Assembly (NCBI GenBank): GCA_938002255.1
Contig: CALLAL010000031.1
Coordinates: 1-39,864 of the forward strand
Source: an uncultured bacterium
GTDB lineage: Bacteria; Desulfobacterota; BSN033; UBA1163
Length of the DNA: 39,864 nucleotides
Direction: 5' to 3'
The position numbers and the translations under genes are program-made. Positions within the stretch are counted from its first letter, which is position 1. The number at the start of each line of letters is the position of its first letter. The notes below the pieces were generated by a model. The model did not search any database, had not been told where the DNA came from, and saw only the letters and a program-made list of their open reading frames with translations. Below, piece by piece: positions 7,663 through 10,418 of the stretch.

Positions 7663-8193
7663 CTATTTAATCCATTCCTGTTTTGCTTTATATAGTTCTA
7701 CTTCCTCCGGGATCTTCTTATCCAACATGATTCTTGCTTCTTCTATTTGATTTCTGTATTGATCCATTTCCAGTTTAATCTGTTCCCTCTGTCTTCGGAT
7801 TTGATTTCTCTCTGCAGAACTTTTAGACTCATTATATCGTTCTGTTAACTCATTATATTTAATTCGAGCTTGTTCGTTTTTCTCTTGGGCTTCTTTTAGA
7901 CGGAACCTCCACTCTTCTACCCGATGCTTCCAATATTCTTCCCCTCTACCCAATAGGTCTCTATAATCATCAGACTTTTTTCGTGTAGCTGGATCTCCTT
8001 CCAACTTCACCTCATGTTTCTCTTCCCATGAATCAACCCTTTCTGTTTTTTTCTTATATCGATCAGGGATTTTTGTGACATCATCTGAAAAATAGACATT
8101 TCCCTTATCATCAACCCACTTATAGACTTGCGTAAATCCATAGGAAGGAAATAATATAGAGAATAGAAAGAAAATAAAAATCATTTTCATCAT
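7663..8193 (-). CDS. Secreted DUF4124 protein with coiled coil
   Basis: 176 aa from the ATG at 8193; the frame extends to a TTG at 8211 that would spoil the signal peptide. Residues 1-20 are a signal peptide with a phenylalanine-rich core (IFIFFLFSILFPSYGF). DUF4124 follows directly (VYKWVDDKGNVYFSDD, with the Y-W-D-G-YFSD core), then a long charged coiled coil from about residue 75 to 160 (EEWRFRLKEAQEKNEQ, RRQREQIKLEMDQYRNQIEE). DUF4124 proteins are periplasmic and of unknown function; the coiled coil suggests oligomerisation or envelope bridging. No clear ribosome site precedes the start. The candidate sRNA at 8273-8374 is divergent from it. Confidence 0.8.
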   Translation of the reverse strand: MMKMIFIFFLFSILFPSYGFTQVYKWVDDKGNVYFSDDVTKIPDRYKKKTERVDSWEEKHEVKLEGDPATRKKSDDYRDLLGRGEEYWKHRVEEWRFRLKEAQEKNEQARIKYNELTERYNESKSSAERNQIRRQREQIKLEMDQYRNQIEEARIMLDKKIPEEVELYKAKQEWIK

Positions 8194-8237
8194 AAACAAA
8201 TTAAAAGGCAAATCTTATGCCAAAGAGGAGTGAGATG

Positions 8238-8266
8238 TTGATAATTTTTACTCCTTCTGTTACAAT
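8238..8266 (+). promoter_or_regulatory. Sigma-70-type promoter of the candidate sRNA
   Basis: -35 TTGATA (8238-8243), exactly 17 bases, and -10 TACAAT (8261-8266). The expected start point, about seven bases later, is the first base pair of the 5' stem at 8273. Confidence 0.7.
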
Positions 8267-8272
8267 AAAAGT

Positions 8273-8374
8273 GCCGGTACATCAAACCAAATCACCTCCT
8301 TGTTTCACCCCCAATTGATGTACTGGCTGGGATCAGTTATAGCCCTCCTCTAACTGATCCCTTTTATATTTTTT
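8273..8374 (+). ncRNA. Candidate small RNA with two C-rich loops, one matching the 16S rRNA 3' tail
   Basis: About 100 nt. Stem 1 pairs 8273-8285 (GCCGGTACATCAA) with 8315-8327 (TTGATGTACTGGC), 13 pairs with one G-U. Its 29-base loop contains ATCACCTCCTT (8291-8301), identical to the anti-Shine-Dalgarno end of 16S rRNA, and CACCCCC (8306-8312). Stem 2 (8329-8339 with 8351-8361, 11 perfect pairs) has the loop TAGCCCTCCTC and is followed by a U-rich tract to 8374. Loops are nearly free of G, so they should stay open. A promoter ends at the first paired base. Small RNAs with exposed CCUCC loops that bind ribosome sites are known in other bacteria; membership of a known family was not checked. 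A 27-codon frame (ATG at 8235) spans this DNA but would start upstream of the predicted transcript start. Confidence 0.7.
8329..8374 (+). terminator. Rho-independent terminator
   Basis: GGGATCAGTTA (8329-8339) and TAACTGATCCC (8351-8361) pair perfectly around an 11-base loop and are followed at once by TTTTATATTTTTT. It forms the 3' end of the candidate sRNA. Confidence 0.85.
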
Positions 8375-8714
8375 AATAATTTCAATAGATTAGTTTAATG
8401 TTTCCACATTTTTTGTTTAAAGCTTGTTGAAAGTTTGTTGTTTTAATCTCCAAACAATCCATCCATCTAATGGTTTTACACAATGCCTAACATTTGGTCA
8501 ATAAATTACACAATTAATTCAATAGGTTACATGAAAAATCTATTTTTCTTCCGTGTTTTAATATATTTCCTTCAACATGCCGTTTTAGAAAGAAACAAAG
8601 AAACAGGATGGTCCTAAAAATAGTAATATAAAGAGTCACGATTCTTAAAGGAAATTTGTAAAATATAACTGAAAAAAGATTCGATGCGGTTATTTTGTCA
8701 GATGAACGGTTATT
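8375..8714. other. AT-rich intergenic DNA
   Basis: No frame with a ribosome site, no repeat array and no convincing hairpin was found. A short direct repeat CGGTTATTT occurs twice near 8690-8715, just after the VWA gene stop. It may hold the transcription end of the minus-strand VWA operon, but no U-tract hairpin in that direction is visible. Confidence 0.4.
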
Positions 8715-10418
8715 TCATTGGTTTTTTTGAATTGGATTGAAATATTCTCGAATACTTCCTAAGACGATATGGGGAATATCTTCCTTCTTTTTTACGGTAA
8801 AGATGGTAATATTTTTCCGCTTCTCAACCGCCTTTTCAAACCTTGAGGCATAGGGATTCTCACCGATATGAACTGCAGTGACTCGGTTCTGAATCTTTCC
8901 AAAGAAACCGATGAGGGTCTCCAGATTAGTAATTTTCATATCGGTAATGATAAAGAGATCCAGGTCTTTCTTCTGATAAATTAGCGGCATGATATCATCG
9001 AGATCCAAGGCGGTTCCTCCTCCAAAATATTTGCACAAGGCTCGATAGATTTCTTCTCGATTTTCTGTATAATTGAGAATCTCTCGCCCCCCCATCGGTG
9101 CGTCACTGAAATTATAGACCGCTACCTGTGCATGGTTTCTGAGGTAAGCGTTTGTCGCACAGGCCGCTCCTAAAACAGCATAGGAGAGGCTTTTTCTGGG
9201 GTTAATCATACTTCCTGATGAATCAATAATGATTAAGCAGTCGGGGGTTCCCTCTGTTTTTCCTCTCCCCTTTCCTTCTTTTTTCTTCCAGGTCTGTGTA
9301 ATCCCTGGCATAATCTTTCCAAAACTGGTCCAAAGATCGATGTCCTGATAGGGCATTCCAATCTCCCAGGGAGTGTGAGAATGGGGATGAAGCACTCCTG
9401 ATTTTTCTAAGGGGATCTTTTTTACGGGAATAGAATAATTCTCAGCCAGTTTCATATAGAATAGGATATCGGCATCAATTGAAGCCCCTCTTCCTCTTCC
9501 CATTCCTCCTTCAATCCCATACCCCACCTCTTTTAATTCTGCTGCAAAATCCTCCACCACCTCTTTGAATTCCGAAAGTCCCATGGTCTTTCGGGCATAA
9601 TCCCTTAGCCCTTCATCGATCTCCTCATACGAGTAATGATTCAAATCATGCTCCCCTTGGGGGTTAGAGTCCCCTTTTCCTCCTCGGGACTCCTGTTCTT
9701 TCTGTTGCAAGATGAGAAGGGGCTTGATGGAGCGTGCAAATTTCCGAATGCTTTCAGGCCAGCGGGTGCGATCTAAATAAGGGATCCGCGCCAATCTTCG
9801 AACAATCTCATCGTTTCCTTTTTTTGTGAGAGAGACGCCTAAATCAATTCCCCAAATCTTTTGATAAAGTGAAGCAATCACAGCTTCCACTGCCCCCTTT
9901 TTTAAATTTCGGTGCAATTCTGGAATTTCCGTGGCTCGCTTCTTGACACAGTGTGTATCGGCGATCACGTCGATAAAATAATTGGCCGCTTGTTTGGCGG
10001 ATTCTTTATCACCCATGACCTTTTTGGCCTCGGCATAGAGCATCAGATGGGTTTGAAAATCCCAGGGACAGAAGGTGTAATGGGTGATCCCATGATCGAG
10101 GAGGGCTTCAATCAGACTCTCTTCAGACATCTTTCCCTTTAGAGAGGAAAGGAAAGTGGGGTTGATGGTCATCTGTTTCTCTTTCATCTCCAATCCAACC
10201 CTCTGTTCATTGGCATTGGCTTTCTCCTCTCCTTCTTCTCCGTTCTCATTCACTTTGCGGATCTTAGGAATAGGGATTTCCGGGTAGAGATGCTTCTTTC
10301 TCAATCGAGGCCACATCTCTTCGATCAGAGCTTGAAGCCTTTTTTCCTCCTCGGAATCGCTAATAGTAAAGGTTGGGGTATCTGGCTTTCCCTGGATAGA
10401 CCAATTTTTCTCGCTCAT
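8715..10418 (-). CDS. VWA-domain protein with degenerate metallopeptidase-like N-terminus
   Basis: 567 aa. The C-terminal third is a von Willebrand A domain with a MIDAS start at 399-403 (IIIDSSGSM), a later GGGTALD turn and LFIITDMKI. The N-terminal half resembles DUF2201-type zincin folds: helix ALLDHGITHY places H109 and H113 like an HExxH, but the catalytic Glu is Gly110, so peptidase activity is unlikely. A Gly-rich loop (GGMGRGRG, 304-311) lies between. VWA proteins coded beside MoxR-type ATPases usually act as substrate adaptors or metal-insertion partners (known for NorQ/NorD, CoxD/CoxE, RavA/ViaA). The ATG has an AAGGAAAGG ribosome site, and the gene overlaps the beta-helix gene by 59 bp. 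Target unknown. Confidence 0.8.
   Translation of the reverse strand: MSEKNWSIQGKPDTPTFTISDSEEEKRLQALIEEMWPRLRKKHLYPEIPIPKIRKVNENGEEGEEKANANEQRVGLEMKEKQMTINPTFLSSLKGKMSEESLIEALLDHGITHYTFCPWDFQTHLMLYAEAKKVMGDKESAKQAANYFIDVIADTHCVKKRATEIPELHRNLKKGAVEAVIASLYQKIWGIDLGVSLTKKGNDEIVRRLARIPYLDRTRWPESIRKFARSIKPLLILQQKEQESRGGKGDSNPQGEHDLNHYSYEEIDEGLRDYARKTMGLSEFKEVVEDFAAELKEVGYGIEGGMGRGRGASIDADILFYMKLAENYSIPVKKIPLEKSGVLHPHSHTPWEIGMPYQDIDLWTSFGKIMPGITQTWKKKEGKGRGKTEGTPDCLIIIDSSGSMINPRKSLSYAVLGAACATNAYLRNHAQVAVYNFSDAPMGGREILNYTENREEIYRALCKYFGGGTALDLDDIMPLIYQKKDLDLFIITDMKITNLETLIGFFGKIQNRVTAVHIGENPYASRFEKAVEKRKNITIFTVKKKEDIPHIVLGSIREYFNPIQKNQ

Follow-up and report, generated by a model that had tools for sequence, protein, structure and literature searches.

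A two-hairpin element with C-rich loops lies beside a DUF4124 gene

The stretch of DNA analysed here (the window; 39,864 nucleotides (nt), contig CALLAL010000031.1) comes from an uncultured bacterium of the Desulfobacterota and holds, at positions 8273 to 8374 of the plus strand, an element of about 100 nt that consists of two perfect hairpins and a U-tract and that we read as a putative small RNA (sRNA). Stem 1 has 13 base pairs (bp) and a 29-nt loop that holds ATCACCTCCTT, and a linker of 1 nt separates it from stem 2, an 11-bp stem (8329-8339 with 8351-8361) with the loop TAGCCCTCCTC, after which the sequence reads TTTTATATTTTTT. A consensus scan placed a sigma-70-type promoter 6 nt before stem 1, with TTGATA (8238-8243) and TACAAT (8261-8266) separated by 17 nt and agreeing with the consensus at 10 of 12 positions. 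By itself this match is not above chance, as a scan of the AT-rich stretch found 2 such sites where 2.5 were expected; we accept the promoter because homologues carry the same hexamers at the same place. The minimum free energy of the element is -35.9 kcal/mol, compared with -15.4 +/- 2.6 for 200 shuffled sequences, none of which was as stable (z -7.86). The element thus has the predicted promoter of its own and the putative Rho-independent terminator with a U-tract that are expected of an sRNA.

These results agree with an earlier description of the locus made from the letters alone (the sequence-only reading), which had proposed a 17-bp-spaced promoter, a 13-bp stem with a 29-base loop, an 11-bp stem and a U-tract. 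It had also described both loops as almost free of G and unmasked, and we found one G in each and nearly full unpairing in the ensemble. Its statement that loop 1 is identical to the 3' end of 16S ribosomal RNA stands for the general bacterial 3' end only: neither of the two GGATCACCTCCTT copies in the draft genome is a 16S end. The genome encodes Hfq. It has the element in a single copy, and a repeat element was rejected on this ground; an 11-codon short peptide (ATGTACTGG...CTCTAA) was rejected because stops break its frame in three relatives (G015, G002 and G013).

Table 1. Positions of the predicted features of the RNA element in the window
Feature	Position	Strand	Basis
Sigma-70-type promoter, TTGATA-17-TACAAT (predicted)	8238..8266	+	Consensus scan; hexamers and position recur in homologues
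Small RNA (putative), two hairpins and U-tract	8273..8374	+	Fold z -7.86; covariation in homologues; G-U/A-C asymmetry
Stem 1, 5' arm, pairs with 8315-8327	8273..8285	+	Changes on both sides in 10 of 13 pairs, 19 sequences
Loop 1, ACCAAATCACCTCCTTGTTTCACCCCCAA, antisense to ribosome site of M23 peptidase gene	8286..8314	+	16-nt perfect complement; unpaired in ensemble
Stem 1, 3' arm	8315..8327	+	Same covariation as 5' arm
Stem 2 (terminator hairpin), anti-Shine-Dalgarno loop TAGCCCTCCTC at 8340-8350	8329..8361	+	Near-invariant in family; two inner pairs change together in sister family, CCCTCCT kept
U-tract, end of Rho-independent-type terminator (predicted), possible Hfq contact	8362..8374	+	Sequence; homologues T-rich at same place

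The element is conserved in the family and its stems covary

By DNA search, the element is present in all nine other genomes of the genus and in six of the seven other genomes of the family. With a covariance model, 16 of 17 family genomes were positive, G012 with a second copy, as were two of four genomes of the sister family, so that the presence in related genomes anticipated by the sequence-only reading was confirmed. Matches in a sample of 297 genomes of the phylum, searched with stricter filters, were confined to family members. The homologue set used below comprises 19 copies (16 family genomes, the second G012 copy and two sister-family genomes); weak model matches in G010, apparently within a reading frame, and in G019 (E value 0.07) were left out of the counts.

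Among the 19 copies, 10 of the 13 pairs of stem 1 show compensating changes on both sides, while two pairs of stem 2 are changed on both sides, and the covariation score was reached by none of 500 shuffles. Within the family the sequence of stem 2 hardly varies; in the sister family two inner U-A pairs have become C-G, with CCCUCCU retained. The promoter position and the T-rich tract are kept as well. Comparison between genomes therefore supports the structure, strand, conservation and accessible C-rich loops of the element as established. The CCCTCCT of loop 2 is invariant in all homologues, whereas 9 of 19 keep the CACCTCCTT of loop 1 and the other 10 have it broken. The expectation of compensating changes in both stems and fixed CCUCC loops was thus strongly borne out for stem 1, for two pairs of stem 2 and for the core of loop 2, but for CACCTCCTT of loop 1 in 9 of 19 copies only. 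The UUGUUUCACCCCC extension of loop 1 lies outside the anti-Shine-Dalgarno (anti-SD) core, is better kept than CACCTCCTT and adds pairing with the leader of an M23 peptidase gene described below, and for these reasons loop 1 appears to be more than a mimic of 16S.

The second, diverged copy of the RNA in G012 (L026:1488-1585) has another neighbourhood and a shortened loop 1, with hairpin 2 unchanged. A possible distant homologue, the E 0.07 match in G019 (L135:1501-1606), belongs to a third family of the class; it shows a promoter-like TATAAAT, an GCCGATCATCA hairpin whose loop reads ACCTCCC, and a terminator hairpin that is longer. Carriage by viruses was rejected, as the hairpin 2 pattern had no match in viral contigs.

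Loop 1 matches the ribosome site of an M23 peptidase gene

Besides one match with the T-rich tail, the longest match of the element in its own genome is CCTCCTTGTTTCACCC, antisense to GGGTGAAACAAGGAGG, which sits 6 bases before the GTG start of a gene whose 302-amino-acid product has a Peptidase_M23 domain; the next gene downstream on the same strand, read from sequence, encodes SecA. Loop 1 is perfectly complementary to this ribosome site over 16 nt, so that the putative sRNA offers an accessible seed for a candidate target. The exact 13-mer TGAAACAAGGAGG occurs in the genome in the M23 leader and, antisense, in the RNA, and nowhere else. By duplex energy the M23 leader ranks first among 348 sampled leaders of the genome (-34.1, compared with -28.3 for the runner-up), and when the longest contiguous pairing is the measure, it stands alone at the top of 688 leaders, sampled from stretches of two genomes, in both G000 and G008. 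The prediction against Shine-Dalgarno (SD) regions that had been suggested from the letters alone thus led to a conserved candidate target at a ribosome site.

The match recurs in the orthologues of most family genomes and reaches about 9 nt past the SD part; the orthologous leader of G016, from another genus, carries GGGGTGAAACAAGGAGGT. RNA and leader have changed jointly in G008, where the loop reads CCTATTT for CCTTGTTT and the leader GGGTGAAATAGGAG for GGGTGAAACAAGGAG. The G008 pair forms 14 bp; other M23 leaders give the G008 loop no more than 10 bp, and other loops give the G008 leader no more than 12 bp. For the second copy in G012, too, the M23 leader of its own genome is the best partner (14 bp with G-U pairs counted). 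Further upstream, the M23 leader of the genome under study has GGGGAGGG, which could pair with loop 2 and is placed in the order that a two-point contact would need, though it is not generally conserved.

Several observations weigh against M23 as the target. The leader site is lost in G009, changes in the loops of G007, G001 and G016 weaken pairing with their own M23 leaders, G004 has lost both the loop and the leader side, and the sister family retains 8 bp only (UUUCACCU with AGGUGAAA). Because the M23 leader of G008 is itself structured, the cofolding gain there is 3.3 kcal/mol, compared with 14.6 in G000, and when the sampled G008 leaders are ranked by gapped duplex energy this leader falls outside the 12 best. 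Exact complements of loop 2 at ribosome sites, TTAGAGGAGGG(C), stand before a different gene in each genome, with no recurrent orthologue, and the family genomes, which are drafts, are non-independent samples. In view of these counter-examples, we take the M23 gene as a probable, not a proven, target of the RNA.

The mraZ gene was considered as another target and rejected: in the genome under study its leader (GGGGGTGAAACAG) can pair with loop 1, yet the family as a whole does not retain this complementarity, and in the sister family it breaks down. Across the class, mraZ leaders (L177-L195) have repeated GTGGGATAA/GTGGTA boxes that resemble MraZ binding sites.

A trans-acting anti-SD RNA and the alternatives to it

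We propose, with a probability of about 0.65, that the element is a stand-alone, trans-acting plus-strand sRNA whose loop 1 pairs at the ribosome site of M23 and lowers its translation, with loop 2 as a second anti-SD seed. Transcription would start at the RNA's own promoter and stop at stem 2. The C-rich loops would pair with G-rich SD regions, probably with the help of Hfq, and keep ribosomes from binding. Loop 1 would do so over about 9 to 16 nt at the M23 gene directly upstream of secA, and loop 2 (CCCUCC) would be a less specific seed for M23 or other messenger RNAs (mRNAs); an effect on secA downstream of M23 is possible. We infer transcription, the M23 pairing and repression from computational sequence comparison.

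A broader action is a less likely explanation: generic CCUCC seeds may dampen many mRNAs with strong SD sequences without a dedicated partner, M23 being one of many or partly a chance match. Consistent with this, the most constant feature of the RNA is the loop 2 CCCUCCU, for which no target gene recurs, loop 1 pairs well with many leaders, and several loop changes are unmatched in the M23 leader. A generic seed, however, fits poorly with a match that runs about 9 nt past the SD part and is found again in orthologues throughout the family, and with the joint change of loop and leader in G008.

We regard it as improbable that proteins or the ribosome, and not mRNAs, are the partners of the loops, with the RNA serving as a decoy for SD-like RNA or an RNA-binding protein. 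The resemblance of loop 1 to the 16S 3' end would fit such a role, and the near-frozen stem 2 within the family could mean recognition by a protein; yet CACCTCCTT is broken in more than half of the homologues, stem 2 has compensating changes in the sister family, and pairing with M23 explains loop 1 better. The suggestion in the sequence-only reading of a decoy for SD-binding factors therefore found no support.

The strand of the RNA and the DUF4124 gene

On the plus strand, the stem positions of the homologues contain 26 G-U cells (9 pairs) and 3 A-C cells (3 pairs), these being counts of sequences and not of independent events. Because the 26 G-U cells would read as A-C mismatches on the minus strand, selection appears to have acted on a plus-strand RNA, and the plus strand is, on this comparison, the RNA, in keeping with the strand favoured by the sequence-only reading over its CsrA-like, minus-strand alternative.

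The divergent DUF4124 gene adjoins the element in most genomes. Sigma-54 promoters have the consensus TGGCAC-N5-TTGC, and a site that fits it, TTGGCATAAGATTTGC (8208-8223, minus strand), lies between the element and this gene, directly before the gene. The site is conserved among the family genomes, and transcription of DUF4124 is accordingly expected to begin past the element. Since the second G012 copy has no DUF4124 neighbour, the RNA does not seem to depend on that gene. Thus, although the minus strand also folds well (z -5.4), displays AGGAGG in its loops and leads towards a gene found beside most copies, a CsrA-like leader of DUF4124 with GGA loops is the least credible explanation, given a G-U/A-C asymmetry that does not fit a CsrA leader, a terminator-like T-tract on the plus strand, the intervening sigma-54-type site and the G012 copy. 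The listed TTG start of the DUF4124 reading frame (8211) falls inside TTGGCATAAGATTTGC, which makes the ATG at 8193 the probable real start.

Flanking DNA and neighbouring genes

A second conserved non-coding block, CCCACATTTTTTGTNNANNCCCTGTTGANAAC, lies about 40-100 nt 3' of the RNA (about 8401-8433 in the window; in relatives, for example, G006:C298:697-728). Of the 17 family genomes, 14 have it, each in one copy; it is degenerate in the genome under study and holds the DnaA-box-like words TTATCAACA/TTATCCACA. A replication origin just downstream was considered because of these words and rejected, as the sign of the GC skew stays the same throughout the window and the G008 contig; the block may serve the sigma-54-type promoter as a binding site for an activator. 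A 567-amino-acid protein without a Pfam match (8715-10418, minus strand) is encoded beside the RNA in most family genomes, followed on the same strand by genes for a GXGXG-like protein and an AAA ATPase.

Relation to known anti-SD RNAs

The alpha-r14 or 'cuckoo' RNAs (SmelA075, NfeR1) and Rhodobacter RSs0680a carry anti-SD loops on two to four hairpins with variable stems and block ribosome sites; RSs0680a has two anti-SD stem-loops, and NfeR1 silences ntrB by pairing at its ribosome site (PMC3927594, PMC10746234). The RNA described here likewise has anti-SD loops on sequence-variable stems, stem 1 varying by compensation and stem 2 between families only. It differs in that the CCUCCUCCC loop motif occurs in none of the 19 copies, whose loops read CACCUCCUU and CCCUCCUC, in its single copy per genome (two in G012 only) where alpha-r14 RNAs have several, in its lineage, and in a loop 1 extension that is longer and appears target-specific.

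In Listeria LhrC, CU-rich motifs in two stem-loops, stem-loop A and the terminator loop, bind AG-rich ribosome sites by base pairing (PMC13350326). Our RNA shares two stem-loops with loops able to pair at such sites, but its linker is 1 nt, LhrC has several sibling copies in Listeria, and Rfam detects no sequence relation. Neisseria NmsRA and NmsRB act as antisense RNAs on ribosome sites through two UC-rich anti-SD regions (PMC5362039); they resemble this RNA in having two such regions and differ in having three stem-loops, one anti-SD between hairpins, targets in the tricarboxylic acid cycle and tandem siblings. Among sRNAs on cell-envelope genes, DicF on ftsZ and DsrA on mreB pair in the 5' region of the mRNA (PMC13204101); these are other RNAs with other targets, and no M23 peptidase is among the examples in that review.

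An Rfam search gave no match at the gathering score, the best hit with permissive filters having an E value of 1.4. The element is thus probably a new RNA family of a known functional kind, one that would act like RSs0680a/alpha-r14, LhrC and NmsR without detectable membership in any of them.

Implications

Anti-SD sRNAs have so far been described from alpha-proteobacteria, Neisseria and Listeria, and a sequence-unrelated RNA of this kind in a bacterial class that is uncharacterised points to more than one origin of two-hairpin anti-SD RNAs. The analysis provides a concrete predicted target together with two natural RNA-target pairs, those of G000 and G008, that differ at matching positions. 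Control of peptidoglycan metabolism by sRNAs is poorly understood, according to a recent review (PMC13204101). As a tentative view of its role, to which we give less credence than to the pairing itself, the element may be a previously undescribed, lineage-restricted sRNA that, through long pairing between loop and ribosome site, mainly sets how much of a peptidoglycan peptidase is made, and perhaps how much SecA, with the invariant loop 2 as a clamp or second seed, and it would in this way link the cutting of the cell wall to protein export.
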